Positions 19,086 to 64,000 of a stretch of 64,000 nucleotides of DNA are shown here, in pieces. The translations under genes were made by a program, and so were the position numbers. Every line of letters begins with the position of its first letter. Within the stretch, counting starts at the first letter, position 1. The DNA is from Lepiota brunneoincarnata. Lineage: Eukaryota > Basidiomycota > Agaricomycetes > Agaricales > Agaricaceae. The notes beneath the pieces were generated by a model. The model did not search any database and was not told where the DNA came from. It saw only the letters and a program-made list of their open reading frames with translations. Location: positions 992,001 through 1,056,000 of the forward strand of contig JAEBUN010000008.1 in NCBI GenBank assembly GCA_023014365.1. Direction: 5' to 3'.

Positions 19086-19087
19086 TA

Positions 19088-19302: not shown

Positions 19303-19498
19303 TCATTTTCCTAAAATCTGGTTTTGGACAGGCTGAATCAATACCAAATCAAATGTGGGGATAACAAAAATTGTCATGTGACCCCCTCCATATCACATGA
19401 CCATATTGAAATTACTTCAACAATCTTTTCTTCTTACCATTACATCATAGAAGCTATATCTTCTACCCAGTGCTTTCAAGTCATTTTTCTTCTTCAGA

Positions 19499-20462: not shown

Positions 20463-20463
20463 T

Positions 20464-20677
20464 AGAGGGTCAAAAAACTGTCCCAATGAGTTAATATTTT
20501 AAATCATTAATTGATTCCTTACTTCTTGGACAAATCACGTGATTTAAACGGATTCGGGATCTCAATATGCTATATTATCATTGTCTATTTTCCCAAGTAT
20601 TTACGTAATCACCTTGGTCCACTATTACCTGATCTTTCCAAATAGTGAAAACATTGGAACAGTTTTTTGACCCACTG
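20464..20677 (-). repeat. Right inverted arm of mariner copy 1
   Basis: Inverse of the left arm, with a few substitutions. It also carries the terminal motif at both of its own ends, facing each other (20465-20489 and 20652-20677). Confidence 0.85.
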
Positions 20678-20679
20678 TA

Positions 20680-20937
20680 TATAAAGGCTTGTATGAGTAG
20701 AGATTAAAGCCTTAAGCTTTAATCTTGTTAACAGCAGTTGTTAACCACTCTCTGCCTTGATTTGGTGTGTTCCCTCATTATCTCATTGAGCATGATCCAC
20801 TAAGCTTTGCAAGGCCAACCATCTCAGACACCTTGTAAAGTGATTGAAGGCCTTCTCCAGTTATCTTTGGATACAGAAGGAGCAAGGATCATAACAACTG
20901 CCATGGTTTCCCCCAACCCCCTCTGGTGTGTTGCCTC
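20680..20937. other. Spacer, possible LTR remnant
   Basis: Contains ATATAAAGGC just outside the mariner copy, then a TTAAAGCCTTAAGCTTTAA near-palindrome (20704-20722) and GTTAACAGCAGTTGTTAAC (20727-20745). It looks like the end of an old LTR, but no partner was found. Its last 14 bases are the target duplication of the LINE. Confidence 0.3.
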
Positions 20938-24817: not shown

Positions 24818-27800
24818 CTGGTGTGCCCCCACCACATTCATGTAATAGGTTCTTGGTTTTGTCAGTAGATGAAATAGAACCTGTTTCCAGCTCTAAACCA
24901 ACTCCCGAAGACACACCACCACCCCCAAAAACTTCAGTGCAACGTCCCTGCTGGAAACACCACCTCCCAAAGAGACCAATCATTGCTTATTCCGACTTGG
25001 AATCCAAGTCTCTCCAGTTGACAGTGGAACTTGAGACCACTGACTCGGCAGAATGCAAAACAGTCAAGGCATTGGTGGATTCCGGTGCAACCGGTTCCTT
25101 CATTGACCAAGACTTTGTGCGTGCTGCTTGCCTCAGTACTTGCCACTTATCCAATCCCATCCCGGTGTTCAATGTAGATGGGACTCTGAATGAGGCTGGA
25201 CAAATTTCCGAAGTGGTAGATGTGGTCTTACGCTATCGGAACCACGCCAAATGTACGCTGTTAGCAGTAACCAAGTTGGGGAAGCAAGAACTCCTTCTGG
25301 GATTCATATGGCTGAAGCTTCATAACCTGGAAATTGACTGGCAAACTGGAGAAGTCAAGTTATCCCGATGCCCCTCACGCTGTACAGAATGCTGAGACCA
25401 GTCACACGCCGAACGCCATGCCTGAAAACTTCAAGCCAGTTGCATCCGTGCCTGCCAACTTGGCCCCTTCCCCACCTTAGATGAAGAAGAGGACGAGGAT
25501 GAGCCAGCCCTCCCTGCTGAAGAGCCGGAGGAGCCTTTAGAAGATGGGGATTGCATCTTTGCAGTGGGACTCCTCCCTCCGAAGCTGACTCCGGAGGTAA
25601 TTGCCACAGGCTCTACTACCTCTCAGCACCTAGCAAAGGCCTTCCTCCGGAATTCCCAGATCAATAGCCCCCAGAATTCCAGCTTCTGAGCACATGTTCC
25701 CCCATATCTTCAGGAGTATGCTGCCATCTTTGCCAAGGAGTCCTTTGACATGCTCCCAGATCACTGACCCTGGGACCATGCAATAGAGCTCATTCCGGAA
25801 GCAGACCCCAAGGGGTGCAAGGTCTATCCACTGTCCCCTCTCAAGCAGAAGGAACTGGATGAATTCCTACAGGAAAACTTGTCTTCTGGTCGGATATGCC
25901 CATCTAAGTCTCCTATGGCTTCCCTGGTCTTCTTCATTAAAAAAAAGGATGGCTCGCTTTGCCTAGTACAGGATTACCAAGCACTCAATGCCCTCATGGT
26001 GAAGAACAAGTACCCTCTACCCCTCATCTCTGAGCTGGTTGCGCAGCTCCAGGGGGCAAAGTACTTCACCAAACTAGATGTTCGATGGGGCTTTAATAAT
26101 GTCTGGATTAAGCCAGGAGATGAGTGGAAGGCAGTGTTTCGCACCAATCGGGGCCTCTTTGAACCCCTTGTCATATTCTTTGGCCTCACTAACAGCCCGG
26201 CCACCTTCCAGATGATGATGAATGACATCTTTCATGAACTTATCATGGAAGGAGTTGTGGTTGTCTACCTGGATGATATCCTCATCTTCACCTGGACCTT
26301 GGAGCAGCATAGGGATGTTGTTAGGCATGTCATGGAGATCCTTCAATGGCACAAGCTCTACCTATGGCCAGAAAAGTGTGAGTTCAAGCACACTTGCATT
26401 GAGTACCTAGGACTCATCATCTCGGAAAACTCTATTGAGATGGACCCGGTCAAAGTTGCAGGAATCAAGGAGTGGCTGACCCCCAAGGATAAGTTAGGGC
26501 TTCAGTCTTTCCTGGGTTTTACAAACTTCTACCACCACTTCATCCAGGACTTCTCCCACATAGCCTGACCCCTCTTCGACCTCACCTGAAACAGCACTAC
26601 ATGGCAGTGGAACTTGGAAAAGCAAGCAGCATTTGATGGCTTGAAGGCAGCTATCACTTCAGCTCCAGTTTTGGATTCTCCAGATGATAAGGCACCCTTC
26701 TGAGTAGAAGCCGATAGTTTGGATTTTGCCACAGGGGCTGTACTCTCTCAACTCTCCGGAGATGATGGAAAGTGGCACCCAGTAGCATTCTACTCCAAAG
26801 CCTTGTCTCCGGTGGAGCGCAACTATGAGATCCATGATAAGGAGATGCTGGCCATTATCTGAGCACTGGAAGAGTGGAGACACTTCCTCGAAGGAGTATC
26901 AGAAAAGTTTGAAACCTGGACAGATCACAAGAACTTAGAGTATTTCATGACCACTCAGAAGCTAAACCACCACCAGGCACATTGGTCCCTCTATCTTTCC
27001 TGGTTCAACTTCTCTCTTCACCATCACCCTGGTCACAGCATGGGAAAGTCCGACGCCTTGTCTCAGAGATCTGATCATGGCTCAGGAGCACAGGATAATG
27101 CTGACATTACACTTCTCCCAGCATCTCTCTTCGCGGTATGAGCTGTTGATGGGATCTCTCTTCAAGGGGAAGAGCAGGCCCTCCTCTGAGACATCCACTC
27201 TGGAAACTGAGGAGGCAGACAAGAGAAAATGGTGGCCAAAGCAGCCCGGGAACTCCAGAAGTCTGCAACACGCTCAGTGCACAGTGCCGAGTGGTTGGAA
27301 CTGGACAGCTTGCTTCTCTTCCAAGGCAAAATATATGTTCCAGATGATGCAGCACTCTGCCAATGCATTGTAGCCCTTCACCATGATTCCCAAATTGGGG
27401 GACATGTGGGCCAATGGAAAACTCTGGAACTTGTCTCCCAAAACTACTGGTGGCCCAACATGTCTCACTACATTGGTCAGTATGTTTCTACATGCGACCT
27501 GTGCCTCCATGCAAAACCAATCTGGAAACTCCCTGTCGGAGAACTTCACCCTCTCCCCATTCCAGAAGCCCGATGGGATACCATTAGCATAGACTTTGTA
27601 GTGGAACTCCCAGAGTCCAATGGGTATGATGCTGTTATGACTGTGGTTGACTCCATCTCCAAACATGCTCATTTCATCCCAACACACACTACCCTTACAG
27701 TGGACAGAGCAGCACAGCTATTTCTCCATCATGTATGGAAACTACACAGACTTCCACATCAAGTGGTCTCGGATCAGGGTCCTCAGTTCATTGTGTCATT

Positions 27801-28908
27801 CACCAGGGAACTCTACCACTTACTCGGAATCAAAGGGGCTTCCTCTACAGCATGGCACCCCCAATCAGATGGGCAGACAGAACGGGTCAACCGGGAATTG
27901 GACCAATACCTCCGGATCTTTGTCAATGAGCGACAGAACAATTGGCACGACCTTCTCCCCCTGGCAGAATTCCAGCACAACAACCACATCCATACTTCCA
28001 CCCAACACTCACCATTTGTCCTAGACACTGGCCGAAACCCAAGAATGGGGTTTGAACCCCACCAACAACCGTCTCAGCTGGAAACAGTCAATGAGTTCAA
28101 ATCCCGGATGGAATCGGCATTGGAGGAGGCAAGATCGGCACTTGTGAAGTCCAAAGATGACATGGCAAGGTACTACAACCAACGGCAAACCCCAACTCCG
28201 GAGTTCAAGCCCGGAGACAAGGTTTTCCTGGATGCGTCGGACATACAAACCCTATGACCATCCAAGAAACTCTCACATTGCTGGTTAGGACCCTATGCAA
28301 TTGACAAACAGGTCAGCTCCAATGCATACCGACTGAAGCTACCGAAATCCATGAGACACCTCCATCCGGTCTTCAATGTGGTAAAGCTCACACTCGCTCC
28401 CACTGACCCTATTCCCGGATGCCAGCCCAAACCACCACCAGCACCTATCATCATCAAGGATGAAGAAGAGTGGGAAGTTGAGGAAATCCTGGATAGCCGC
28501 ATCCACTGGAGGAGACTCCAGTTCCTAGTGAAATGGAAGGACTTTGGGATTGAAGAAAACTCCTGGGAATCAGCCGAGGACATCCATGCCCCTGACTGCA
28601 TAATGGAATTCTATCAACAACACCCAGGAGCTCCAAGACAGATCAGGAGTCTTGCATTTGGCTCAATCCCCTTCCGTACCCTCAATCTGACCATTGTGCC
28701 GAGTTGTCACAACCTTGAAGGGGGGGTAGGTGTAAGGGGAACTCCAGGTCATCGCTCACAACTGCAGACTCGGAATTCCGATTTCCAGCCTTCCTGCACT
28801 CGGAAATCTGATCTCCAGCCCTCCTGCACTTGGAAATCTGATTTCCAGACTCCCAATGCTCAGAAATCCGATTTCCCGCCCCCATGGGCCTGGAAATTTG
28901 TCCCCTGA
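24805..28908 (+). pseudogene. Pol of gypsy-3: PR-RT-RH-INT-chromodomain, one frame with 12 TGA stops
   Basis: Protease ALVDSGATGSFID (25069-25107). RT with KDGSLCLVQDYQALNA and the catalytic VVVYLDDILIF (26258-26290). RNase H (VEADSLDFATGAVLSQL; ILTW-like block degraded). Integrase zinc finger HHDSQIGGHVGQW...CDLC (27379-27512) and core with Asp in SIDFVVELP, Asp in VVSDQGPQF and Glu in QTERVN. Chromodomain EVEEILDSRIHWRRLQFLVKW (28474-28536), which in chromoviruses reads histone marks and steers integration into heterochromatin. Stops lie at 25393, 25423, 25687, 25765, 26566, 26587, 26701, 26860, 27139, 27187, 27208 and 28255. All are TGA and in the same frame, and most stand at positions where the family has Arg. 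Confidence 0.9.
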
Positions 28909-31958: not shown

Positions 31959-34266
31959 TTAGGATGCCAGCAAGACAAATTCTCCATGATCAACAAGGTT
32001 TAACAAGTTATCCAGAATGGTTACATAATGGAAATCCTCAGTGAATACAACATGGTACAATTTCTCAATCCCTTTGTCAGATGAAACTGAATGAGTGGAT
32101 TTATGACTGAAAAATGAACAGACTTACAAGGATGTGGGTCCCGAGGATATGTGGTACGGCAATCCAGGATAATGTGGTCGTCCATAAGGAGTGTTGTTCT
32201 ATAAGCTCTTAATGCTGAAAATCGACTAGAATATTGCTCAAGTTGATCACCATCACGAAGAAGTTCTACAGCCCAGTTCTTTGCAGGAATATAGAAATCA
32301 ACACACCCAGCTGCCAGTCCATATTCAGGAAGGGTGAGGAGTGAACCAAGTGAAACTGCATGACAGCAACGGTAAAATTCATCTTGATATTGTGCCTCTG
32401 GTGGTCGCTGAATCGAACCAGGCCCTATTCTTCGTTTGGCTGAGAGAAAGCGTGGGGAGAACTTGGCGATAACCTCTACCACAAACTCGAGTAGATCAGT
32501 TGCATTAAACTGAACGGGCGGAATGCCCCACAGCTTCCACTCCATAAACCAACGGTGGAGTGGGGATGCAAAGACGTAGCTGACTTCCACAGGCTGGCCA
32601 TGGCTATGAATCTTGTCGGTGTGTAGCCAGCCACTGTGGAAACACAGTTCAAGTGCATCTCTATCCTCTTCGGAGTGGAAGTCAGCTTTACCATTGCGCA
32701 GGACAACTGGGAAGGCATGGGCAATTGCTGTATCCCGGAGCTCCTGATCCTCCGGTAGGCCCCTATGGAATATAGAAGCATTGTTCTCGAGATTCCTTAG
32801 GAAGTCATGCAGAGGATACTCTCTCTGGAACATCTGCCAAGTGTACGATTGGCCAAACTTGGACGGATCGGACTTAAAAGAACGATATGACTGAGCTGGG
32901 GTCAGACTGTAGCCTCCATCAAAAACTAAAGTAAACCCACATGGTGACTAGCAACTATCGCTGTGAGATCATGTATAGCTCCCACATGCCCATTGGTTAT
33001 AGCGAAAACGGTATTCATGAATGAATCATCAAAACGGTATTTGCGTACAAAGACATTGTCGACAAGCTCCCGAAACTCCCTCCGAGTGAAAAAGAGCCCG
33101 ACAGCTGGGAGCCCATCCGCATGCTGAATGGGACGTAAGGTCACCCTCTGCACATCGTTCAAGTCCATGGGTGTCCCTGATGCTAGGGTGAGGCGCGCTG
33201 TCGGACTGCCATAGCTGGCAAAGGCAATGGCCTTGCACCCTTCCCTTTCATGGATAGATTTGAAAAAGCCACGCCAGAGGTTTATATCCGTGTACGAGCT
33301 TTGCGCTTCGTCAAGGATGAATACCGTTTTCTTGCTTTCTTCCCAACCTTGGCTTTGGAGATAGCGTTTGTATCCGCCCACCGCTTTCACCTCTTCCAGT
33401 AGCGGCCACCCATCGAGGAAAACGGTGGCCATCTCGGGATTTTTTCCAGCGATATGGTGGTGAAGTAATTTGGCGAGCACCGTTTTTCCGCTCGCAGGCG
33501 TCCCGCGAACCTGTATGGAGTGAGAAAGGATCCAAACCTTCAACGCTTTGATGTCGCAATACCTGAACGAAGCTGTATTTCATGAGTCGTTCGTAGAGTG
33601 CCGCAACTGTCTCCCTTCGTGGGCAGGTGGTTGCTAAGTCCTTGTGAGCGATGAGAGAACAGATATTTAGCTGGGCTTACATAAATCGGGGAGTGATGGA
33701 GGGGGGCTTGGAGTGGCGTGTGGTGGGCCTTTGTGTGGAGTGGCAGCGGGCCAGGAATAAGAGCCGGCCCGCAGTCCAAGGGGGACAAAAATTTCGTGTG
33801 GTTGGGGGCGTGGGGGTGGTGGAATGTCATTTGTGATGTCGGAAAATGGATGGGTTAGGCGGAGAAGAGATGATAAAACGGAACCAAAGGCGGTCGATGT
33901 GAGTGCAAATCAGTGAGGATCTATGGAGTAATAGGCAGGGGCACTTACCATTATTACGCCTGATATCCACCACAATATTGATATTGTCGAGCGATGGGGC
34001 ATCTACAAAAACAGCGGAAAGCTTCGCGGACGGCGACAGGGATTGATTTCCAGCAGATAAATGCTTCTCGATCTCGTCCCGGAGCGTTCATCACAGGGGA
34101 TGGAAACGGACCAAAGACCGAAAAGGTGTGGCTTGATAAGGCCGCCTATTTCGTCCAGGATCGCACGCTTGAGATCACCAACCCTTTCTTCCTTCTTGAT
34201 TTCGATAAAGAAGTTGTTAGAAATGTCCTCGCCGCGTATACCGCAATGCAGAGTGAGGGTGGACAT
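31959..34266 (-). pseudogene. CRN-1: Crinkler-type protein (ubiquitin-like header, P-loop NTPase, PD-(D/E)XK-like domain), probably broken
   Basis: Crinkler (CR) family effectors join a ubiquitin-like header to a STAND-type NTPase and a restriction-enzyme-fold domain. Known members act in or near the host nucleus. Exon 1 (34266-33949) encodes the header, with RVGDLKRAIL and LWSVSIPCDE. A GTAAGT intron follows, then a short exon ending FVQ and a 52-base intron. The NTPase exon has Walker A RGTPASGKT and Walker B FILDEAQ (33505-32926). The nuclease-like part (32833-32021) shows YQDEFYRC, then CVDFYIPAKNWAVELLRDGD. A last exon ends at TAA 31959. At 32926 a TAG plus two extra bases break the frame between NTPase and nuclease parts, where copy CRN-2 is open. 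Either that is a recent lesion or an intron I cannot place. Confidence 0.75.
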
Positions 34267-47034: not shown

Positions 47035-47950
47035 TTCGCTAATCGAGTCGAGGGTAAGGCACCACCTAAAGAGCCATTCCCCAGCTTTACTGCTATTTAT
47101 CTCATTCCGACGTGCGAGCTCGTCATATCATTCACACACTCAAATTTTCTTGTTCCCGTCCCATATGAAAGCTTGAGGTCGAAGGCATTCGTTCCGGCGA
47201 TATATCAATCAAATGTCATCGGCCAACTTGTGTCAGTCAATTGGCCCGAGTGTCAGGGCACATCAGGAAAATGATGCAGCATTGATGAGGGAATATAAAG
47301 TCGTAGGTTTTTATTACACGGTCCCCCCTGCTCCCGATTGTTCAAAACAAAGCTACCTATCTAACACTTGACCCTACCTCTCGTCGACAGACGCTCTAAT
47401 GACGCGACGGCTGAGCGTCTATACTCACCCTCTCGCAAGAACAGCTAAACATATAGACGCGTTCCTCGCTTATGAGCACAACTCCCACTGTCCACTGTCA
47501 CGATTCATATATAGCTACATGGGAGTTATTTACGCACGTACGCTGCGTGTGAGTGTTCAGGCACCTCGCACCTATTGGTCGTCAACACAAAACGAAGAGT
47601 TGAAGGCTGAACGGTCTGCAAGAGCTTCCGTAATGACATGGGATGATCAACATTTCTTCGATCCAATCACTTCGGCCACGAGATGGGTGATGGAATCAGT
47701 TTATAGAACGGCTTCTCGGAAGATTTACTATGCTCGGGTGGGAGACGGACGTCGAACGAGAAAAGGGGCGGAATTTTAAAATTAAGTATGGCATGTGGCA
47801 TGGTTGCTATGCGGGAAACATCCACCCCCTGTTGAGACTTGATTGAAGCTTAATTTTAAGGGGAATTTATCGGCAGTTCGTTGCACCCGTTCCAGCAGCG
47901 TGGGTCTCAGAAGAGGATTTTGGACTTGAAAGATGTGCTCATAGTGCGGG
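47035..47950. other. Intergenic region left of the TIR element
   Basis: One open frame at 47399-47779 (126 codons, Arg/Ser-rich) resembles nothing I know. I would not call it a gene without transcript support. Confidence 0.35.
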
Positions 47951-47986
47951 CCTACGGTTGCCGACCAGCGTCAGGCCTGTTTTCGA
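47951..47986 (+). repeat. Left terminal inverted repeat of the integrase/kinase element
   Basis: 25 bases perfect, then 8 of 11, against the inverse of 53361-53396. Confidence 0.9.
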
Positions 47987-48612
47987 TGAAGGCCCAGACC
48001 ATCAGCTTCCTTTTTTATATTTCGGGGTCCCAATACCTCAGTCCTCTAGTCGCACAGTAGTATTTTTATTCATGTATCGTTCCCTGTGACACACAGCCGA
48101 ACTGGCCCAGCTTGTGGCATCACCGCCGTCGTCTCCACAAGTGCCGCCGTAGTTCGGCAACTTATACTCACTTTGGCTCGTTGGGTTCAACGACTTTGAA
48201 GTGCACTAGCGAAGGGCATGATATGGATCATCCCACCATGGATCTGATCGCTGGGCTTGGGAGTGGCAGCCTCGATAACTGGATGCCTTTAGACTTGGAT
48301 AGCCCTGCAACTGGTTGTTTTAAGCCTCACCGACGATGAAGGACAGGTGTGAACAAGGTTTGCCAGAAGGATAAACTTTATTGCAGAGAATCATAGATTC
48401 AGAGATGGGAATGCTTAGCAACAGCCTCGTAAGTCCCGAGGCAAATAGTCTCATTGGCAGGATCTTCTGGTGACTCTAGCGTTGATTCGTTATCTCCTGA
48501 AGTCGGTGCCGGAACGGTGAAATATTTACTGCTACTGGACGTAAAAGCAAAGTAGACTAGCAAGTAACGTTGCTGGCCAGTTATTAGGTGCCGAATGATG
48601 TCTTCATCCGCC
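47987..48612. other. 5' region of the integrase/kinase element
   Basis: Holds the promoter side of the integrase gene. A short divergent frame (48614-48402, minus, 71 codons from MADED) begins on the complement of the integrase ATG. It has no recognisable domain and is probably fortuitous. Confidence 0.35.
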
Positions 48613-50145
48613 ATGCACAACCGTAACCCCCAGGGCAAAAACCAACATGGCACAAAACGTGAGTGGTTCTGAACACTTCATTCGAATAGTTGACAGGAGT
48701 GAGGTTACTTTTTAGCTAAAGCCGATAATCCAGTTCTCGTTGAGGCACTTACCAAGTACCATCACCGACTTTTGACGAACAACAAGAAAATTGCCGAGTT
48801 CCTGTCAGTTGATTACGGCATTGAAATGTCGTGAGTTCGAACTCAGTGGTATCTCACATCTTCTCACCAGAGCTGAACTCTGATACTAGAGCCAAGACAG
48901 TTGAACGCCGTAGAAAAGAACTTGGTCTGCTGGGGAGCCGAGCCAACGAGTCAAACAATTCTCAGCATGAAATCGAACAAGTGGTCCTTGGAATAATGGC
49001 TGAGAACCCATCTGGCCAGAAGGGACCACGCAAGATCCGTCAATCGGTCGCTAACAGGACCGGGCATCATATCCGACGTGACACAGTAGATGCGATAATG
49101 AAGAAACACGACTACGAAAATTTTCAGAAGAGAGCTCCAGGTGCACGGAAGATCCAACGGAGTAAGAAGACGCCGGTTGGAATACATGACCGATGGTCAG
49201 GCGATGGACACGATAAACTCAACAGGATTGGTTTTCCCATATGGGCCATTGTAGACGATGCCACAGGGAAGTGGCTTGGTGCATGGGTTGTACCTAACAA
49301 TCGTCTTGGAGTTATTGTTGGATACCTCTTTCTGTGCACAGTAGAGGAGTATGGAGGTGAGAAGCTGTCGTTCAGTGTTTGTATGTGCATCAATATGTGA
49401 AATGCTCACCATATTTCTTTAACAGGTATTCCCAACCAGATGACAACAGACTGTGGCTCTGAGACCACCTCAATTTACGGACTTGTGAATGCACTCAGGT
49501 ATTTCCCTAGGTTCTTGGACAATTTGATACCTTTTAACGCTGCCTGTAGGGAGATCTTTCATCCAGATTTTGATCCCACCAAGGAGCTTCCAGCACATGT
49601 GTTTTTAAGGAGTGTACACAATATCTCTATTGAGCGGTCTTGGTTCAGATTGCGGCTGGATTGGGGGGAGGATGCCGTTTTGGTATTTGAAAAAGGTGTG
49701 ATTAGCGGTGTCTATGACCCTCAAAATCCTCAGCAGTAGTACGTTGAAACACCTTGGAAGCAGTTACAGCACTCATACTCACTACAGCGAACTCTGTCAA
49801 TGGCTTTGGCCAAGATTCCTTCAGCAATCGCTTACCGAGTTTGTTGAGGAGGCTAATTCTTTCCCCTGTCGTTTCCAACAACAGAAGGCAGGGCCCTCGG
49901 GTATGTCAAAGCATGAAGCCTTTACGCTGTATCACAAATGGAATGGGAAGAATTGCCTGCTCCCGGTTGATGTCTCACTGATCCAAGAAATCAAAAAAGC
50001 TATGGGAGGCGATGAGCTTTTGAATTTCGTCACCTGTGAGTTCGCTAACCACTGTGAGGGGGTGTACAAAGATTTAGGTTCCCCCAAACTCTCATTTGGG
50101 AGCGTATGGATTGTGTTTGAGAAAATGTATCCTCTTGTCTTTTGA
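48613..50145 (+). CDS. Integrase-like DDE protein, presumed transposase
   Basis: Start ATG 48613, chosen because exon 1 (48613-48658) then splices in phase to 48716. Further introns are 48831-48889, one near 49354-49424, 49499-49549 and one near 49700-49780. The N-terminus has a helix-turn-helix-like stretch (NNKKIAEFLSVDYGIEMS, then TVERRRKELGLLG), followed by a region with DTVDAIMKKHDYENF. The catalytic core has Asp in RWSGDGHDKL, Asp in MTTDCGSET and Glu in SVHNISIERSW, spaced about 58 and 43 residues, as in retroviral-type integrase folds. A conserved C-terminal part follows (SELCQWLWPRFLQQSL, AGPSGMSKHEAF, NCLLPVDVSLIQEIKKAMGG). Genes of this type are widespread in agaricomycetes, usually annotated only as integrase catalytic domain protein. 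Here the TIRs argue that it is the transposase. Confidence 0.8.
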
Positions 50146-50518
50146 TCAATGTTCGTACGTACACTAGTGAGAAATGCATGATTTACGTCAAGTGCTACTC
50201 TACCAAAGTGGACACATGGTAAGATAGAGTCATTGTGGAGGGTATGGGACATGCTTTCCGAGACTCAGATGCTGTTGTGGTGTTCGCTGTTCACAAGGAG
50301 TGGGTGTTTGGGAGAAGGCAGGCCATGTGGGTCTGACGTACAAGGAAGGACCATACAACACACATCTGCGGGTGTTGGCCTCATACCGGAAGCAAAGGCT
50401 ATCAGACAGGTCAGATGGGTGCCAAACACGTTAGCAACAACTGTTGGAAGCAAAAAGGGTTGAAAAGTAGCAGAGTGTAGACGGCTTGACTCACTCATTT
50501 CTATACTCCCCCAAAACT
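50146..50518. other. Intergenic spacer inside the TIR element
   Basis: 373 bases between the integrase stop and the kinase ATG. It probably holds the kinase promoter. No feature is recognised. Confidence 0.4.
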
Positions 50519-53070
50519 ATGGTTCATTGTCCTCAATGCTTCCATGCCTTTGAACGACTTGCTGAAGGAGATGTACCTTGTGCCAAATGCCGTCAACAAA
50601 AGCCTGGGATGGATGTTGTTACATTAGAAATGCTGCAGGCTAGGGCGCAATTCTACTTTTAACAACTTCCCTATCTGACGTGTTTCTCTACATTATCTGG
50701 TGCATGCTTTTAGAACAAACAACAGTGTGCAACATGTGGGCTCATGCCTCCATCACTGGAGGCTGCAATTTGTAATGGTTGTGCAAAATACTATTGTACG
50801 TTGCAGTTGGCTAGTGTCCTGGGGCATTCTTCATTTTTCCTGATCACATTATATATAACAGCTGAACGATCATCAGGCATACCAAAAGCAGTCCTCGAGC
50901 TTCAAGGTGCCTTCAAACTTATTATGGCTCAGGGGGAACAGCATACTTTAGAGAAACCCACTACGGCTGGGTTTGGATCGGGCTTTCTCAAATTTGCAAG
51001 AGCACTTCAGAACGATTCTACGGCTGCTGGACGCCTTGCACAAAAGGTTAAGGTTGGGAGTCCGGCAGGCCAGTACCCAAACCTTGCAAAGGCAAGGTCT
51101 GCAAGGATAGTAAAAGCCGCCCGAGCAGAGGCTGCTAAAGGCACGGTGATGATAGATACTGGGAAAGGAATTAAAATCAGTGCTGGTGTCTGGCGATTGG
51201 AAGGCCCTGAGCGTATGCGAGAGGTTTGAAACTTACTTTCCTCTCCAAAAAGCTGATTCTGATTTTCCTGATTAGCTCAAACTCATAAGGGCTAGCGAAA
51301 TCTTTCCACTCCAGATGAACCTCAAAGCTGCCCTTGACAAATTAGTTGGTCGAGCACAAGATGACTTTGCTGCGCATTGGCCTCATCTCCCACCCTTATG
51401 CTGGTAGGTTCTATGATCTGTTATCAATTTTTATCCACCCAAAATCATATGGATTCTTAGGGACACTATCTACTTACACGCACATGAGTCAGCAAGCAAA
51501 CCAGTATCTCTTGAGTATCTGGACCATGGCAAAGAGCTTACGGTTGGGGAGCTATTCCAGCTAGTCATGAATCACAAGTGGGGGAGTGATAGTCTGCTCA
51601 AAGCAAGAACTGTAGAGCTTCGTTTCACCTATGGAAAAGGTTTGAACATGATGGACCTGGTTAGTCTTAGACCGGAACCTCATTGTGTATTGATGTGCTA
51701 ACTCTCATAATTACAAGGATTTCTCCACTGGAGATATAGGCTATCAGATGTCAGGTACTAGCGGTGGCAGCAACAAGCGACGAAGGTTGAAAAGTGGGCT
51801 TGGGTCTTCCAACACCTATGCCCAGAATCTGCCACGATCTATGCAAGCTCACTCTTCAAAAATTCCGTTTCAGTCAGCACCTCAACCTTCAGCTACTCGC
51901 ATTGTTCTTTCCAGCTCCTTTCGACCTCCTGTTGCACGTGTCCAAGCCTTTCCTCCAAGTCAATGGACTCGAAATCCCCCTCTTATAGTCCTCAAATTCA
52001 AGCGCTTCCTAACTGAATATGGAGGTGGACATGTCAAGGTTCAGGCTGGGACTGACGTTGAAGATATTCAGGTTGCATCTGACTGGAAGACGGGTGAGCG
52101 CAATGAGTCTGGCGCTGCACTGAGTTTAACAGGGTACATTGGATTGGGTTACAGTAAGCGAGCAATTTATGTAAGCAAATTCTAAAATATTTTATTCTGC
52201 TATTGATTAAATAATTATTTACAGGCTCGCATTGGTCCCCGAGAGTATGCTCTGACTCAGATGCATGATGCTGATTATTCAGAGAGCGAGGTCAAGAACC
52301 TTTTGCTTGCTGAGTACAAGCTCTTGTGTCAATGTGACCGTTTCAAAGCAGAGTTTGACAAGCACGCAACCAACTGCCAGGCCCAGGGTATCCCCTGTAC
52401 GTTCTTCAGATGCGTCTATGGCCTCTTTCTTATTACATAAGTCCAGCATTCTATTTCAATTTCAAAGACTCGATTTTTGGGGTGCTTTGCAATGATCCTG
52501 GCACTGAAAGGTTGGAAAAGGTTGCTTATCTCCCCTATAACCACTTCATAGCCACCCCACTCCTCCCCTGCAACAAGGCTGATGGTCGGCTGAGGAAATT
52601 CACTGGAAATAGTGAAATTGGCGAAGCAAAGGACAACCTAACCAAGGCTATCCATGCTTTTGCACACTTTTCTGTTGTCTATTCATCAAGTCACATTGTC
52701 TTCTGTGATCTGCAGGGTAGGTTCCAACACTCCTCACTTGCTATGAAGCTGAGATGCAGCACCAGGGATGTTTGACACCCGCGGCAAGATGTGCCTGTTT
52801 GATCCTGAGGCACACACGTAAGTTTCGACTCATCCAAGCCCACTCTTTTGTGACATGTGACACTCCAGGTCTGCAGAATTTTTGGATGACCGCCTCGCAT
52901 ATTGGGACCACGGTCCTGTGGGTATAAAGAACTTCTTGGATCTGCATGAACCCCACTGTGCTGAGAATTGGGTGTGCCAAAAGCTATCATTGAAGGATCT
53001 GGAGGTTGAGCAAGTCTCTAGTGCAGAGAAACCACCTAGCCGACATGACATCTCATTCTTAACAAACTAG
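50519..53070 (+). CDS. Alpha-type protein kinase (MHCK/eEF2K family) with N-terminal zinc ribbons
   Basis: Start ATG 50519 (MVHCPQCFHAFERL). CPQC...CAKC and, after an intron, CATC...CNGC pairs form one or two zinc ribbons. A middle part, KFARALQNDSTAAGRLAQKV to AGVWRLEGPERMREV (to 51228), is of unknown function. A disordered Ser/Arg/Pro region follows (51748-51960). The kinase domain runs from about 51990 to 53010: an N-lobe with GTDVEDIQVASDWKTG, GYIGLGYSKRAIY and REYALTQMH, then SSHIVFCDLQG, MCLFDPEAHT, the glycine loop YWDHGPVGIKNFLDLH, and the zinc-binding end CAENWVCQKL. These match the catalytic DLQG-type, DPxxH and C-terminal Cys/His features of alpha-kinases, which are unrelated in sequence to ordinary kinases. 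At least seven introns by eye, exact borders uncertain. The substrate is unknown, and catalytic residues look intact. Confidence 0.82.
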
Positions 53071-53360
53071 TCATGTATTTCAGCTTTCTTGGGGTATTCT
53101 TCATGAATCCTTTACCCCTCTTTTTCTTGGGTCTTGAGCTCGCTGTTATTTTGATACCACCAATGTAACATGCATTCAGTTTGCACAGAAAAGATGATAC
53201 AGTGACAATATTTAGAGAATCCCTACTTCGTATCACAAATTGTCAACCATACGTAAACATCTGGTATACTGTCAGATAGTGTATCGGTGAACCAGCTCAC
53301 TTGGTGCACCAATATTTTTTGCTTCAGGGCGTCACGCGGTCCCAGGACCCATGGCACCTG
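53071..53360. other. 3' region of the TIR element
   Basis: Kinase 3' UTR and subterminal sequence. No further gene is seen. Confidence 0.4.
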
Positions 53361-53396
53361 TCAAAAATAGACCTGACGCTGGTCGGCAACCGTAGG
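53361..53396 (-). repeat. Right terminal inverted repeat of the integrase/kinase element
   Basis: Inverse partner of 47951-47986. It lies 290 bases after the kinase stop codon. Confidence 0.9.
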
Positions 53397-55315
53397 GCCA
53401 TTGCTCTTACTTCTACCGAGTTTCAAGTCGCACGGGAACCACGGCGATTTTGGTTTGCTTTTTTACCCAGTCCCCCGCACGACATCATTGTTCCTCGTAC
53501 ATGTCGTTGTGAAGATTCCTGGCCACCATCATCAGAGGTGTTAGTGAATCATATTTATATCCAGGCACATCGCACACGGATCGTCCACGTCTGATGAAGA
53601 TTTCCTCAAACGAATAGGGGTTAAATACTTGTTGCAACTGGGTGTGAATGGATAAAGGAAGTTGCCTACGATCAGAGTCTCTGTTCTCCAGCGAGAAGAT
53701 AAGAACGATGATTGGACAGTCAACAGACAACGATCAGGTTCTCGAATACTCAGGCTGATTCTTATTGTCTAAATTCTTGCTTCTGGGTGAGTAAGCCAGT
53801 CGCGCAGCTTGATGAAGTGAGTACTCGTTTGAGGGTATGAGCAGCGGCTACTCGAGTACCCGAATTCTAGATTATGCACATGCTATGAACAAGTGGGTCC
53901 ATTCTGTATTCCTCCTATCTTTAATCAATAGTCTAACTCATGGTTTGCTAGGCAGCCTAGGCTCTGCTCGAACACATCTCGAAGCTCTAGTTGTGTTAAC
54001 CGAAGCACTCAAAAAATTAAGTGATGCATTACACTGGAAGTTTGATCCTGGGCAGGCAGTCCCTGCGCATTAGATTCCCGCACCCACGACAAGCGACCTG
54101 CCACACTCGTTCGAAGAGCTTCTGTGCCATCCTTTCCTCAGGACGAAAATTCGATGAGCAGGCGAGATGCAATGTCTATTAGGGGCCAATCCTGTGCCCT
54201 GGGGCACTGAGTAGAGTTACACGCCTGTCATATCCATGCCAACTATAAGTCTAATCACTTAAACTTCGGCTTCTCGACTCCACGTGTGTTCCACACAACA
54301 ACCCTCTGCCTTCCGACTCGGCCCCGACTCACTCCGACCGCAACCCACTGCCCCGATCACGCGACCACCTCCACACGTGCCGTGGTCACCTGAACCTCGC
54401 TGTCTCTATTTCCCCATCTCCATTTCCCGTCCGTAGTCAAGATACGTTACCAGTCTCCATACCCGTACCGGTCTCCATTTCGTTTGTAATCCGTTTGTAA
54501 CCATATGGGTCTCCGCTTCACTCCGCACGTAGTCAGTACGAGTCATAGTTCGTAAGGCCAGTAGTATATATACCGTAGGTACTTGGCTTGTACTCCTCAG
54601 TCTGATAATCGAATCGAGCAGCGGACCAGCTCCCTGTTCCATATCCTCTCCTCTCTTCTGCCTCGCTCCGCTTCGGCTCCGACTTCCTGAAATACGGACT
54701 AGGACAGTAGGAGGGCACAGCACATAAGCTGAGGCCGCAAGTCCAACCCCCCGCCCGACGTACTCCGCCTCGGTCCCGAAGTCTACGTACTGACTTCGCC
54801 CTGTCCCCTGGTTACCTTATACCAAGGATACCACCCCGACCCTCCGCTTCAGTCCCAACCCGCACCGGCTCTAACAACGCCATTCATTAGTGAGTTTCAT
54901 GTGAATGTGCACTGGCAAACAGCGGATGACCTCAGCTCATTCCTCGTCAGGACCGAAGACTCTTCGGAGTTGGGGACGAATATGAATAATGAGCGGAACA
55001 GCCGATTGTGGTGAAGGAAAGGTGATGCGTCTTGTCTAAGACATAACAGAGGGACCGAGACATAGGAGAGCACCGCCAGTGTCTGATATTCGTAGATGAT
55101 GTATTCAAGGTGCTCGCGAGCAGAACCCTGGATGGACAGGAGAGTAGCAACCTTCTTCAGCAGCAGCAGTGGTTATCACTGGTGGTGGCTCGAATTCTAG
55201 GCGTAGTTTAAAGCAAGAAAACTGAGCAGCCAGGGGACCTCTGTCACTCTCTGTCACGCTTGCAATGAACCTTTGATAAGAGTTGAGAACATTGTGGCTG
55301 CTGTGACTGTCCGTC
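53397..55315. other. Intergenic region, no gene recognised
   Basis: Short open frames only (for example 53837-54073, 78 codons). From 54290 to 54900 the sequence is rich in CCGACTC/CCGCTT and GTCTCC motifs without a clear period. The last about 60 bases before 55316 match the upstream region of CRN-1. Confidence 0.4.
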
Positions 55316-56298
55316 ATGTCCACCCTTACTCTTCCTTGTGGTATACGCGGCATGGACATTGCCTACACCTTCTTTGTCGAAATTGAGAAGGAAAAAAGGG
55401 TTGGCAATCTCAAAGGTGCCATCCTGAACGATGTGGGCCAAGGTGTTGGGGCACAAAATGTCTGTCTTTGGTCCGTTTCTATCCCCTGCGATGAGCACTT
55501 CAGGAACGAGGTCGAAAAGCATGTATCTGCTGGAAATCAGCCGCTGTTTTCATCTGCGAAGCTCTCTGCTGTCTTTGTAGGTGCCCCATCACTCGAGAAT
55601 ATTAGTATTGTGGTGGATATCATGCATGATAGTGGTGAATTCTCCCACCTATTACTCCCATAAATCAACACTGATTTGCACTCACATAAACTGTCTCTGC
55701 CTAACTCATCCATTCTCTGACATCACAAATGACATTCCTCTATCTCCATGTCTCTGACCACATGACTTTTTTTAGTGAAAATGTAATGTAAATAAAGAGT
55801 GGGAAAGGGAAAGCATGATGTCTTTCCTCACCCCTTATCCTCTCTTTTTATAACTGTAATCTACTGGTCCAAGCATACAGTTTATTGTTCTACTTGTACA
55901 ATGAGGTTTATCTATTACCATTGTGCTCATGTCGTATAGGATGGTAAAGTTCCTCTTGGAGAGGAACTTTGACCATCCTACAAGTTTCTCTTGGATACCT
56001 GACAAATCCAATACCATCAAACCCACTTTTATTGTTCATCTCTTCTCCAATGAGTCATGGCACAGATTGTTCATTCAATATTTTTTGTTTCCCTTGATCT
56101 ACCAGTTGGCTCTTATTCATGACTCACTTATCACTCTATACAAAGATCCCCCATATTTCACTCAAGCCCCCCATCTATTATCCCTCCTTTCATGTAGGCC
56201 CAGCTAAATATTCATCCAATCATTGCTCACAAGGATCCAGCAACTATCTGTCCATGAAAGGCTACAGTTGTAGCACTCTATGAATAACTCATGAAATA

Positions 56299-57891
56299 CA
56301 GTGGGTCAAAAAACAACCCAATGTTTTCATCATTTGGAAAGATCAGCTAATATTGGACTAAGGTGATTACATAAATACTTGGGAAAATAGACAATGATAA
56401 TATAGCATATTGGGATCCTAAATCCATTTAAAGCACATAATTCATCCAAGAAGTAATGAATCAATTAATGATTTAAAATATTAACTCATTGGGACAGTTT
56501 TTTGACCCTCTATCATCTACCTAATTAATACCTTGAATTGCCTCCTTTTGCCTTAATAACTGCCTTGAGCCCTCTGGTCATGCTTTCTATAAGCTTTTGA
56601 CATCTTTCTGCAGCAATCATATTCCACTTTACCACCAACCTGTCCCATAATTCATGTATTCCCTCAGGTGGTTCTCATATCCCTTCAACTGGTTCTTCAG
56701 GTATATTCAGAGGTGTTCAATGGATTTGGAGTCAGGGGATTGTGCTGGCCATAGTAGAACTTGCATATTGTTATCTTCAAACCACTCTGTTGCCCTTTTA
56801 GACTTGTATTTTGGATCATTGTCCTACTGGAATATCTACTCCTCCTCCATCTCCAAAGTTTTGAAGCTATTCACTATCCCATATTCCAAAATCTCACACT
56901 ACTGCTCTACATCTATGATCCTCTCAACCTCTACTAGCATTCCTACTCCTTTCTACCCCATAGCCTGCCATATAATAATATTACCACCACCTTCATGCTT
57001 AACAGTAGAAATAATATATAGTCCTGTCTGAGAGTCCTTCCCCTCTTATACAGCTTCCCATATAACCCAAGCTTGTTGATTTTTGTGTTATCTGTCCATA
57101 ATATCCATTTCCAATCTCCTACTGTCCAATCCTTATGCTTGTGGGCAATCTGAAGTAAGCAGTTCAGTGTTGCTTCTTAAGAAGAGGTCATTTGGTTTTA
57201 ACAACAGACCAGAAATTGTTCTTCTTGAGCATATTTCAGATTGTTTGAAGTGTGACAGGAGTAGGGAGGATAGAGTGGATGAATTGGGTCACTTGAACAG
57301 CATTGTCCAGCTTTCCAGTGGTGATTTAGCAAATTATTGATTGTTTATTCTGAGAAATCAGCATAGAGGATTGTCCTCCTTTATTGTTTTCCTCATCTCA
57401 ATCAACTTCTTTCATGATCGGCTCAATAGTACTCTTGTCTAGACCAGTTTGGACTGAGTTTTTTTGCAAGGAATAGCCATTCTGAAGAAGAAAAATGACT
57501 TGAAAGCACTGGGTAGAAGATATAGCTTCTATGATGTAATGGTAAGAAGAAAAGATTGTTGAAGTAATTTCAATATGGTCATGTGATATGGAGGGGGTCA
57601 CATGACAATTTTTGTTATCCCCACATTTGATTTGGTATTGATTTGGCCTGTCCAAAACCAGATTTTAGGAAAATGACAGAGGGTCAAAAAACTGTCCCAA
57701 TGAGTTCATATTTTAAATCATTAATTGATTCATTACTTCTCAGACCAATCACGTGATTTAAACGGATTCAGGATCTCAATATGCTATATTATCATTGTCT
57801 ATTTTCCCAAGTATTTATGTAATCACCTTGGTCCACTATTAGCTGATCTTTCCAAATGGTGAAACCATTGGAACAGTTTTTTGACCCATTG
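56299..57891 (-). mobile_element. Tc1/mariner element, copy 2 (1593 bp), inserted in CRN-2
   Basis: Flanked by TA (56297-56298 and 57892-57893). Termini are CAGTGGGTCAAAAAAC... and the inverse of CAATGGGTCAAAAAACTG.... Arms are about 215 bp, each again bounded by inverted copies of the terminal motif (inner copies near 56487-56512 and 57676-57701). The transposase remnant is on the minus strand (about 57480-56515), with stops. It is collinear with 19088-20677. Confidence 0.9.
56515..57480 (-). pseudogene. Tc1-like transposase remnant, copy 2
   Basis: Same decayed reading as in copy 1: the C-terminal PPEGIHELWDRLVVKW block next to 56640, a WPAQSPDSKSIEHL-type block near 56740, and the K-TKINKL block near 57070. 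Different stops from copy 1, so both decayed after separating. Not functional. Confidence 0.75.
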
Positions 57892-59045
57892 TATAACCCC
57901 CCTCAGATATTGTGGCATTGAAGCATAGAGAGTTTGGATTTTTTCTTACCCCCTACAGGTTTGTGGGACTCCTGCAAGTAGAAAGATGGTAGTCACCCAC
58001 TTCTCAATTATATCACTGAGAAAGACCCTAAGGTGACCACTATGTATCTTGATCAGTGACCACTGCAAAAAGTAAAAGCAGCCAGTGGCCACTACCACTA
58101 TCTACATCATTAGGGTTGGATATTAGGCAGGAAAATGGTGTTTGTTTTTGATGAAGCACAAACTTCATATATGGATATAGGTCTCTGGTGCAACATTTTC
58201 AGATCCATCTATGAAAGGAAAGATTGCAAGGCCATTGCCTTTACCAGCTATGGCAGTCTGACAAACACCTCACCCCAATACCAGGGACACCTATGGACTT
58301 GAACATTGTGCAGAGAGTGACCTTATGTCCCATTCACCACAAAGATAGACTTTAGGAGCTTGTTGATAATGTCTATGCATACAAATACAATTTTGATCCA
58401 TCATTTGTGAATACTATCTTTGCTATAACCAATGGACATGCAGAGGCTATACATGATTTCATAAACATAGTTGCTGATTATGATGTGGGTTTACTTCAGT
58501 TTAATGGAGGCTACAGTCTGATCTCAACACAGTTATATCATTCTCTTATATCCAATCCACTCAAGTTCAGTCAATTGTACACTTGGAAGATATTTCAGAG
58601 AGAGGTCACTTTGGATGACTTTTATGGCAGCTTGAGAATAGAGCAGCTATATTCTATAAGGGCCTACCATTTGATGTGTACTTCCAGGATCCAGCAATTG
58701 CTCATGCCTTCTTTATTGTTCTGTGTAATGGTATGGCCTCTAAAGTTGACTTTAACTCCAAAGAGGATGAGGATGCACTTGAAAAGTATTTTCACAATAT
58801 GTAGCTGGCTGTCCACAACAAGATTCATATCCATGGCCAGCCAGAGGGAGTTTGCTATGTCTTTGCATCCTCACTTTACTGTTGGTTTGTGGAGTGGAAG
58901 CTGTGGAGTATCCCACACATTCAGTTTAATGCAACTGATATACTCACATTTGTGGTTGGGGCTATTACAGTCACTCACCACTCCTTTATACACCACTGTT
59001 CCTTTATACACCAGCTTTTGTCTTATTAAAATATGCTTCAAGTAA

Positions 59046-60243: not shown

Positions 60244-63200
60244 CTAATTCGGCTCGATGGGAGTTACATCCCAAGATGGGATCGAGCCTTTGATATGCAG
60301 GGATTGGTCCTGGTCAGCTGTCACTTGCTGTAACTCATCTTGATGGGAAGGTTCCATGTCATATGTGTGCTCCTCGAGGGCCTTGGGTGGTATATCTGTG
60401 ATTTTTGTGACTGGTATTGTGCGAAGATCACGTGGGTGATAAGGGACAAGCTGGAAGGCTGCAAAGCGAAGCTTGGAGATTGAGCCATCAAGCTCGGCAA
60501 GAATGTATGATCCTCCAGTTGTCTTCCTGAGTACCATGAGTGGCCTGTAATACCTAGGCTTGGTCTTGCTGCCCACATTGTGGTCGTATTGTGAATTTCT
60601 GACCAAAACAAGAGAGCCAGGTGAGAAATCAAAGTTCTGAATTGAATTAGAATACTTCTCGTTGAACTGTTGTATAGACTCGAAACAAGCCTTGAGTACC
60701 ATATCCTTAACCTTTGTCAGGTCCTGTGGCCACTTTTGAAGCTGAATTACCTGGGCTGCAAGGAGATCGGCTGTTGAGAGGGGCTTGGTGAGATTTGGTG
60801 CAAGGTATGTAGCTTCAGTGAGATCGAAAGGAAGGAGGGGTTTGATGCCATGTGCTATGTAATAAGGTGAGTACCCTGTAGATTTTTGAATGGATACTCG
60901 TTCAGCCCAGAAAATGGAGGGTGCAACTGTAGTCCATCTTTTCTCGTCTCCCTCAGCTGCCTTTACCAAGGCCTCTCAGACATCAAAATGTTGACGCTCC
61001 ACAGGACCGTTCGCTCGAGAGTTGTAGGGTGAGATCCAGATATGATTTATCTTGTATTTTTGTGCAAGGAATTCGACTGCTTGTACGAAGGCGGGGCCAT
61101 TGTCAGTTACTATTTCTTCAATAGCGCCCCATCTACAGAGGATATCTTCAAAAACAAAGGTTCCAAGGGTTCGGGCATTCTCGAGATGAAGCATTTGCCA
61201 CTCGGGGTATGAGGATAGGGAGCAACGTGCGTGGACAATGTAGCGGTAGCCATTTGACTTTGGCATGAACATTGTGTCTATGTAAGCTTTTCAGAAGAGG
61301 GTGAATGGGGTAGGGACTGTAGGGGGGATATAGAAATGATGGGAAAGTCTTGTCTGGCACTTGTGGCATGTTTGGATGTACCAGCGTACGTCCTGGTCAA
61401 GATGGGGCCACCAGAATCATTCTAAAAGCCGAATTCGGACGGTAAACATACCCTTGTGGCCCAGATCATCGTAAGCCTGTTGTATGAGCCTGTATCTTTG
61501 GTTCTCCAGTATCACAAGCTTGTGCTTGAGCTTGGCATCCTTTTTCCATAGCCTAGCATCCCATACAATAAATCCTGCAGCAAAGCAAATGAGTTTCTTG
61601 AGCATATCTTCTGGCATGGCACTGGGCCATTTCGGATCATTTAGGAAGATCTGGACTTGTTGTAGATCGTGGTTGTGTTGCTTTGCTTTTTCAGATCGTG
61701 GAATGATGGGCTTGGGAGGTGTGGCAGAGTCCAGGTACTCACCCAACAGGATTTTGACTGGGTGAATACCACTAAAGTGATGGATAGGATTCGATTGTGA
61801 GATATAGGGGGAAGGGTAGGTTAGTTCTGTTTTGTTAATGAATTCGATAGCGAACGTGTTTGAGGTCCATATCCATCCCAGTTCCTCCTGGCAGGGTGGT
61901 ATCTGTGGCCCATTACCATGTGTTGTTTGAAGGGTGAATGCATTTGCTGAATCGATCCAGTCTTCAAAATTGTCCATGATGGCAGGGTCTTCTGGGGCTC
62001 GGGGGCATTGTGACAATCCATTGGGGCCGTGTTCCTTGCCAGGGACATGCCTAAGGGGAAAATCAAATAGTAGAATCCCCGATATCCATCGATTGATGGT
62101 TGCCGAGAGCTGAATATCAGGGTTGTTGATCATACTCTTGATGTATTTTGCATCGACCTCCACAGCTAGGTTCCCAACTCCTATAATCCATAATTGGACA
62201 TCCTTCAAGGCTCTAAACAACCCAAACAGCTCCAACTTGGCCTGGGAATAGCGAGATTCACATTCATTGAGGGTGATGGAGCCAAACCTTGAGGGGTATC
62301 GTTTCGCATTGTCTCCCAGTTGTGATAGAATGTATCCAACAGCAATCTTTGATGTGTCGACGCCTAGTATAACCTCATTAGTGCTTGAATAGTCTATTGC
62401 TTGAATGCAAGGTGAATTCTTTGCTAATTCCTTTAGTGTATCCATCGCAGCCTGTTCTTCACTGCCAAACCTAAATTCCACTCCTTTCCTTGTCAACTTG
62501 ACCAGAGGTTGTGAGATTGCGGCAAAATCCTGGAGAAAAATTCAGAACGTGCCAAGGGTACCAAGAAACCCCTGCACTTCAGTGATGTTTGAGCATAATG
62601 GCCAGTCGAGGACCTTTTGGATGCGTGAGGTATCAGGAAGCCATCCAGTATACGTACATAAGTAGCCTACGACCACAGCAGATGAGGTGCAGAATTGTGA
62701 TTTTGGCCCTGAAAATGTTCCTCCAGCATGCTTGATCCGTTGTATAATTTGGTTGACATTCTGGAGATGTTCCCATACAAAATGTCAAACTCCAGGATTC
62801 TCGGCTATGGTCTCATAGCCATCATTGATTTTGTATCGCATTTTCAGCCCTTTAATTGGGACATCGTCGACGAAGGGAAGGGCAGTATGTGGGATTTCAT
62901 CCTGGAGGAGGAACGTGAGGTCACCTTGCTGAATTTGCATTGAGTTGGTGTATCCCATGGGGATTGAGGTGAGGTGTAGAGTCCCAAGAGGAGATTGAAA
63001 TGTGGTAAGATTGCGAGATTCAGGTGCTAGAGCACGCTGGTCAAAGCCAACAAAGAGATCAAATATCCTGTAGCATCCATGACCGCCAAAGGACTCAGCG
63101 TATGTTTCTACAATTGGTGGAACTCCTGCATCCTTGATTGTGATGGCATTGAGGGGCTGGAGATCATGTACAAGCCTAAGTGATTTGCCATCCTTTTTGA

Positions 63201-63741
63201 GCACACAGAACCATCGCGATTGATAGGACAAGTTTGAAGGCTCGTAAACACCTCCGGCAATCTTTGCCTTGATGACCTCGACTACTTGTTGGAAGTTTCC
63301 AGGAGGGATGGGTATGTTTCGGAGCAACCAGGGGACATGTTTGATGGTGGGTATAACAATGGGATCAAAATATTCACTTGAGAACTTGCCCTTCTCATCT
63401 TCACTCCATGCAAACCCAAGTTCCTGGGTTCTGATTAGGTAATGGATCAATTTCTCTTCTTCAGGCCATAGGAACCCTTCGGGATTAATATTCATAGCTA
63501 TTTTCCTTTCCAGCATGTAGCGGGTGCCAGGACTGAAGTTGGGTGGTAATGTGGGGAGAACTGGTATATTGTGAAGGGGATCTGTTGGTATCTGGCGAAC
63601 GATTTGATAATTTGTGGGGAGTGTAGTAGCTACTGGTTTGACCCAGTTTGCGACCTTTTTGTAGGCATGGGTCAAGATTTCAGCTATTGGATAGGTTTCT
63701 GTGATGTCAATCTCATATATTTCTTGTGGGTGGTTTAACGG
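60244..63741 (-). pseudogene. Pol of gypsy-4: RT, RNase H, integrase; one frame with five TGA stops
   Basis: RT: SRWFCVLKKDGKSLRLVH, YRIFDLFVGFDQ, catalytic ALPFVDDVPIKG (FVDD, near 62885-62850). RNase H: ILGVDTSKIAVGYILSQ, then SQAKLELFGLFRAL. Integrase: zinc finger ending near 61420, core with Asp in YIDTMFMPKS, Asp in IVTDNGPAFV and Glu in GPVERQH. A C-terminal part has GSLVLVRNSQYD and KTKPRYYRPLMVL, stop at 60244. Stops at 62785, 62542, 61417, 61291 and 60976 (lowest coordinate of each codon) are all TGA and in one frame, at places where Arg is expected. No indel was found across about 1,165 codons. The first 20 or so codons of the open frame above 63741 are LTR sequence. Confidence 0.85.
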
Positions 63742-64000
63742 TGATACGCCGATTTCACACCTATACATGAATTCCATACTCCGGAACAATTCTCTACATA
63801 GAATCATTGGCTATATCATTAAAGAACTCTATAGAGGATTGGTACTATATCCCGTAGTAGCCAGTTCGACTGAACTGAGGATATTTGAGCCTCGGAAGTG
63901 TTCAAACCAGCTCATTATCACTAAGCTTAGTGAACCAAGCTATCAGAACGCTCTCCGGAGGGATTCAGGACTCTACATAGCCTATCGAGTATACCCCGGT
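63742..64000 (+). repeat. LTR of the gypsy-1 family (copy C), partial
   Basis: TGATACGCCGATTTCACACC on the plus strand matches the inverse of 6809-7067 and of the corresponding part of 7812-9111, including the TAAGCTTA at 63922. It is inserted opposite in direction to gypsy-4 and runs off the window. Confidence 0.85.

Follow-up and report, generated by a model that had tools for sequence, protein, structure and literature searches.

An alpha-kinase-fold gene inside an IS3EU-like DNA transposon of the mushroom Lepiota brunneoincarnata

In the genome of Lepiota brunneoincarnata, a gene for an integrase-like transposase and a gene for a protein with an alpha-kinase fold lie side by side between terminal inverted repeats. 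They were found in a stretch of 64,000 nucleotides (positions 992001-1056000 of contig C79), which is called the window in the following; searches of the organism's own genome covered 55.6 Mb in 95 contigs. The unit is a DNA transposon that was mobile in the past. It has a second full copy in the same genome, and the combination of transposase and alpha-kinase recurs in a second, distant transposon family. The features are compiled in Table 1.

The window element and its copies

The initial annotation described a perfect 25-bp inverted repeat (47951-47975 and 53372-53396) that encloses exactly two intron-bearing genes on one strand. This description holds, with the correction that the element ends 2 bp further in on each side. 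It spans 47953-53394 (5442 bp) and has the termini TACGG...CCGTA. The outer 2 bp of the repeat belong on each side to the target site duplication, and since the duplicated GGGCC is nearly palindromic, the repeat starts 2 bp outside the element. The first 23 bp of the terminal inverted repeat are perfect, and over 34 bp the two ends are about 91% identical. When the window was simulated 20 times with a first-order Markov model, no exact inverted pair of 25-mers or 18-mers occurred within 12 kb. The real window contains 78 inverted 25-mer pairs at this distance, because further inverted repeats are also present there.

Table 1. Positions of the window element's features and of the family-2 copies (window coordinates, unless a separate locus is named)
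Feature	Position	Strand	Remarks
Target site duplication, left copy (GGGCC)	47948..47952	.	identical to 53395-53399
Left terminal inverted repeat (TACGGTTGCCGACCAGCGTCAGG...)	47953..47986	+	same left end in copy C1 (L018:1421)
Transposase gene, 414 aa, six exons	48613..50145	+	hand-built model; Pfam rva_4; relatives
Transposase exons	48613-48658, 48716-48830, 48890-49356, 49426-49498, 49550-49735, 49788-50145	+	
Alpha-kinase-fold gene, 679 aa, ten exons	50519..53070	+	hand-built model; Pfam Alpha_kinase; CxxC modules; relatives
Kinase exons	50519-50638, 50714-50795, 50862-51223, 51276-51403, 51461-51659, 51718-52170, 52225-52396, 52447-52716, 52766-52817, 52869-53070	+	
Right terminal inverted repeat (ending ...CCGTA)	53361..53394	-	
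Target site duplication, right copy (GGGCC)	53395..53399	.	identical to left copy
Family-2 copy C16	L039:69-5810		duplication CTTGCAT (7 bp, perfect)
Family-2 copy C22	L040:16-5757		duplication CACAGTG (7 bp, perfect)
Family-2 copy C58, split into a kinase half and an integrase half			outer ends flanked by CTCCAAG (by eye)

The second full copy of this family (family 1) lies at C1:27320-33398. It also starts with TACGG and ends with CCGTA, and it is flanked on both sides by ACCGG, a perfect 5-bp duplication that differs from the GGGCC of the window. Target duplications, which the initial annotation had proposed to look for, are thus present at both copies. The same ends occur with different flanks and different duplications, and the unit is therefore a mobile element. 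Two fixed syntenic neighbors without inverted repeats, the outcome that would have spoken against mobility, are not what the genome shows. A search for the empty site, also proposed initially, found none in this genome, where the joined flanks of the window copy and the C1 copy matched nothing but their own two flanks.

The C1 copy is longer than the window copy because of a nested insertion of 635 bp in its left non-coding part (L018:1608-2242), which has the ends CACCTGAGACCTG...CAGGTCTCAGGTG (CACCTG...CAGGTG) and is bordered by an ACA repeat on each side; we take it to resemble a non-autonomous element of the EnSpm/CACTA type. To the left of this insertion the two copies are identical over 186 bases, and to the right of it 54 of the 5255 aligned bases are substituted (about 99% identity over about 5.26 kb). 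Nearly all of these differences (52 of 54) are transitions. Among them, 39 have C or G in the window and T or A in the C1 copy, 31 of these at CpG, and 13 have the reverse direction, five of them at CpG. Read from the two copies themselves rather than against an outgroup, this pattern looks as if methylated CpG sites had decayed, predominantly in the C1 copy. The transposase gene of the C1 copy is open; its kinase gene contains two stop codons.

Altogether, six copies with two ends were found, and both genes lie inside five of them (two of family 1 and three of family 2). When the genome was searched with the 23-bp end at up to three mismatches, ten matches resulted, four of which correspond to the termini of the two full copies; at the loci of the other six (C38, C8 twice, C13, C17 twice) the transposase and kinase queries found no match. 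Likewise, a search with the first 100 bases gave five matches, of which two are the full copies and three (C17, and C79 at 743707 and 753902) lie at loci without a transposase or kinase match. The end-like sequences on C38 (L019:5707) and C13 (L023:718) are each preceded by cgtctacggttg, and the two loci have long repeats in common; neither sequence looks like an end of the window element.

The transposase and the alpha-kinase-fold protein

In hand-built GT-AG splice models, which were derived from the sequence alone and for which we chose the start codons, both genes of the window element have uninterrupted reading frames up to the stop codon. The transposase possesses the D-58-D-43-E spacing proposed initially, at D159, D218 and E262, and its integrase core is recognized by the Pfam model rva_4 above the cut-off (32.2 bits, cut-off 26). 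The N-terminus resembles a helix-turn-helix (HTH) region. The Pfam models HTH_Tnp_Tc3_2, HTH_21 and rve match below their cut-offs, those of the HTH type upstream of the core, and the models for IS3, ISNCY, IS481 and IS630 match weakly and far below theirs. Among public proteins, 185 relatives were found, and the best of them (120 of the 185 are listed) reach up to 57% identity over the full length. A genome search with PF24764 gave three matches, none at the window; as it missed the window's own transposase, the family counts from this search are incomplete. The loci around the three matches (L045-L047) were not matched by the transposase or kinase queries and contain only inverted pairs of the TAAGG type, with a 4-bp duplication or none.

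The assignment of the second gene to the alpha-type kinases was likewise borne out. Pfam Alpha_kinase (PF02816) matches the protein with 47.5 bits (cut-off 21.3), and two modules of the form CxxC...CxxC start at residues 4 and 45. The first of the nine introns is of the GC-AG type. A search that scored the 7996 candidates sharing most words with the protein yielded five public relatives with 33-41% identity, from Lyophyllum, Amanita, Arthromyces (two) and Termitomyces.

The window kinase, these five relatives, a partial model of the family-2 kinase and 63 proteins of the family-2 type were aligned with MAFFT. At the lysine position of the motif FVAKRF, none of the six proteins of the window clade has a lysine (T in five, A in one). 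Among the other 64 kinases, 56 of the 58 with a residue at this position have K, one has E and one S, and six show a gap. We take this residue to be the ATP-binding lysine of alpha-kinases. The solved structures matched only the C-lobe of the kinase, so that it is the alignment, and no structure, that places the lysine; for a translated segment of the family-2 kinase, no match among solved structures was found. The AlphaFold model of the Lyophyllum relative P0001, computed from an alignment of five sequences, was too poor to be used (mean predicted local distance difference test score, pLDDT, 50.2). The remaining key residues are kept in the window clade: the catalytic D and Q in 6/6, the DP aspartate in 5/5 with a residue, the first zinc-binding His in 6/6, and the second His and both Cys in 3/3 with a residue. 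The zinc cysteines are spaced wider in the window clade (HEPHCAENWVC) than in the family-2 type (DHRCKEIC). In this alignment the window clade thus deviates at the lysine from the residue set of an ordinary active alpha-kinase. Because the presumed ATP-binding lysine is replaced, the proteins of this clade may not be ordinary kinases and might act without ordinary kinase chemistry.

A CxxC-x(8-30)-CxxC module within the first 200 residues is found twice in the window kinase, in two of its five relatives and in 28 of the 63 family-2-type proteins, compared with 5 of 1260 shuffled sequences and 0 of 120 integrases. The other 35 family-2-type kinases lack it, and two of the three window relatives without a module start late or are fused to an integrase. 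Directly upstream of the family-2 kinase model, a reading frame that could not be connected with it shows such a module (CAGC...CQKC). Judged by these motif counts, predicted zinc-ribbon modules are present in both kinase types, though not in every protein.

A second family and the pairing of the two genes

The loci of further alpha-kinase matches on C16 and C22 also contain a distant integrase. They represent a second family, whose element has 5742 bp, inverted repeats of 94-103 bp (TACGGTGCGCCGTTAG...) and the same termini TACGG...CCGTA. The third copy, on C58, is split, and judging by the coordinates its two halves extend over about 14 kb, of which the outer portions were read. There is a slight residual chance that the family-2 duplications are 6 bp long with one extra terminal base; since each of the three 7-bp duplications starts with C, this would need a chance C before the duplication in 3/3 copies. 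Integrase and kinase of family 2 lie on opposite strands, and the partial kinase model reaches 92.1 bits with Alpha_kinase. The transposases of the two families share only about 22% identity over their length (tblastn, introns included) and 30-32% in the best exon. The C16 and C22 copies differ by 27 substitutions, of which 25 are transitions, 22 of these at CpG.

Over the whole genome, at least eight alpha-kinase loci (E <= 0.001) and at least six integrase loci were found. At four of the eight kinase loci (C79, C1, C16, C22) an integrase is found within 4 kb. As for the remaining ones, the nearest integrase is 12 kb away at the split copy on C58 and about 58 kb away on C47, and around the kinase loci on C28 and C12 no integrase was matched within 9.9 kb. 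As the copies within a family do not represent independent cases, the independent count is two families.

On C12 (L044:3229-5706), a remnant of the kinase half of family 2 abuts kinase exons that are about 53% identical to the window kinase, which looks like one element inserted into another. On C47 (L042, L053) the integrase is a third, diverged one, and a 389-bp stretch is 98% identical between the two loci; possibly this is a third family whose pair has been broken up.

The pair is also found outside of Lepiota. In Arthromyces matolae, an integrase (H0H93_006154) and a kinase (H0H93_006155) carry consecutive tags on contigs that are given the same size (25,459 bases), and both domains are combined in a single predicted protein (H0H93_012470), the integrase first as in the window; this evidence consists of gene models at two loci, known from protein records. 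In Amanita brunnescens and Termitomyces, kinase and integrases are on contigs of different size among the matches listed. With the family-2 kinase as query, 64 proteins were retrieved; those that are named belong to mushrooms and related fungi, and none of the 64 has a precomputed integrase domain that would reveal a further pair. The initial proposal that the kinase travels with the integrase in a transposon is thus supported by the second copy, by two families and by the two Arthromyces loci.

The surroundings of the window element are rich in transposons. Two inverted-orientation copies of a 1.6-kb repeat (19086-20680 and 56296-57893) are 94% identical, each with inverted ends of about 230 bp. 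Open frames at 24203-28908 and 60244-63810 show, by eye, Ty3/Gypsy-like protease, reverse transcriptase and integrase motifs. Two further segments, 32469-33566 and 57903-58965, are related (71% identical), and the first contains an open frame with a P-loop-like GTPASGKT (by eye).

Relation to IS3EU and the role of the kinase

The window element can be compared with published descriptions of IS3EU. Kojima (2023) reports that complete IS3EU families always have TA..TA termini and usually 6-bp duplications, and that IS3EU and GingerRoot form one lineage (PMC10045372). For the TET-carrying IS3EU families of rusts, Kojima (2025) describes 6-bp duplications, inverted repeats of more than 30 bp, the termini TAYGG..CCRTA and, in all of these families, a TET/JBP gene between the transposase and an alpha-kinase, the latter two in opposite orientation (PMC12730594). 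Both Lepiota families share the termini (2/2 full family-1 copies, 3/3 family-2 copies, one of them split), inverted repeats of more than 30 bp, and the alpha-kinase gene inside the element; the transposase is of the same D-D-E integrase-like kind, and an HHCC motif was not seen in that of the window by eye. The opposite orientation is present in family 2. A TET/JBP gene, in contrast, was not seen in the window element, where 373 bp separate the two gene models; no dedicated TET search was made, either there or in family 2. We take the duplications of 5 and 7 bp as a variant of IS3EU, since the published wording is "usually" 6 bp. In view of these likenesses, the element works like IS3EU and very probably belongs to it.

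Other transposons are less similar. KDZ transposons with TET/JBP passengers also combine a fungal transposon with an accessory enzyme gene, but their transposase differs from that of the window element. For Zisupton, 8-bp duplications are given (PMC12730594). Styx from Zymoseptoria has a DDD/E transposase, for which a shared origin with IS3EU is stated, and a proposed two-protein ancestor; it differs by its four coding sequences, 36-bp inverted repeats and 6-bp duplications, and the excerpted description names no alpha-kinase inside it (PMC10853768). Ginger1, Ginger2 and Polinton share the integrase-type catalytic core, whereas Ginger1 has an upstream HHCC zinc motif and 4-bp duplications; Ginger2 makes duplications of 4 or 5 bp and Polinton of 6 bp (PMC10045372).

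The initial annotation knew of no described element with this pair. This does not hold, since alpha-kinase genes had already been reported in the rust IS3EU elements (PMC12730594). The pair is already in print, and the Lepiota elements differ in duplication length, in the orientation within family 1, in that no TET gene was seen, and in the missing lysine. That paper is the description that we found; Repbase entries, supplements and subscription papers lay outside the search, and a fuller account from mushrooms may exist there.

We consider it highly likely that the window element is an autonomous-looking cut-and-paste transposon of the IS3EU type, with the alpha-kinase-fold protein as a regular accessory gene that helps in trans. 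Judging from what is known of DDE transposases, the 414-aa transposase would bind the inverted repeats via its N-terminal HTH region, and its D-D-E site would cut the ends and join them to staggered target cuts 5 bp apart. The kinase-fold protein would act as a helper in trans and would most likely bind or modify the transposase, a host repressor or a chromatin protein. A regular accessory role is suggested because the pair recurs in two distant families.

Several points weigh against this interpretation. Four of the eight alpha-kinase loci have no integrase match within 4 kb; the initial idea that the pairing could explain the expansion of the kinases is therefore only partly supported. The sixth two-ended copy, a 1.5-kb internally deleted derivative on C17 (L024:6684-8199), contains neither gene; its two ends are 82-88% identical to the element and carry the TACGG...CCGTA termini, without a matching target duplication. 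The duplications are 5 bp in 2/2 full family-1 copies and 7 bp in 3/3 family-2 copies and not 6 bp, and transposase and kinase are co-directional in the window family, unlike in rusts. The retention of a copy needs no working kinase, because the C1 kinase has two stop codons while its transposase is open. Finally, the proposed role of the kinase is deduced from co-occurrence, and the assignment to IS3EU from published descriptions rather than from a tree with IS3EU reference transposases.

The main rival explanation is that the kinase was captured as passive cargo and has no role in transposition, which we regard as rather unlikely. It would agree with the disrupted kinase gene of the C1 copy, with the loss of the lysine in the window clade, and with the description of the TET/JBP genes in fungal transposons as passively transferred (PMC12730594). 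However, two distant families that differ in gene orientation both contain the pair, zinc-ribbon modules appear in both kinase types, and the same pair has been reported in rusts (PMC12730594); such a long and regular persistence is not expected of passive cargo. Going further than the accessory role, one could tentatively propose, as a possibility that we hold for doubtful, that the alpha-kinase-fold protein is a dedicated second transposition component of fungal IS3EU, which was kept through deep divergence of the transposase and which became, in one mushroom clade, a lysine-less partner, possibly a pseudokinase, while the transposase shifted to 5-bp cuts.

It is quite improbable that the elements belong to a new superfamily beside IS3EU, defined by duplications of 5 or 7 bp. 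The constant lengths within each family and the weak likeness of the transposase to the IS3, ISNCY, IS481 and IS630 models would be in line with this, yet the termini and the alpha-kinase companion fit the published IS3EU description, in which 6 bp is the usual and not the invariable length, and the IS3 subgroups also vary (3, 4 or 5 bp; PMC10045372). That two host genes lie by chance between an inverted repeat is practically ruled out: the second copy with its own target duplication refutes it, and the second family and the lack of exact 25-mer pairs in the simulations speak against it as well.

The window element and its relatives reveal that alpha-kinase genes ride transposons of the IS3EU type in a mushroom-type genome, here with element ends and target duplications at hand. 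Part of the alpha-kinase genes of mushrooms can thus be traced to a concrete source, and some of the proteins that carry a kinase-like annotation may be encoded by transposons. Since the two families occur in one genome, with duplications of 5 versus 7 bp and opposite gene layouts, they offer a natural comparison for the spacing of the target cuts and for the need of the kinase.

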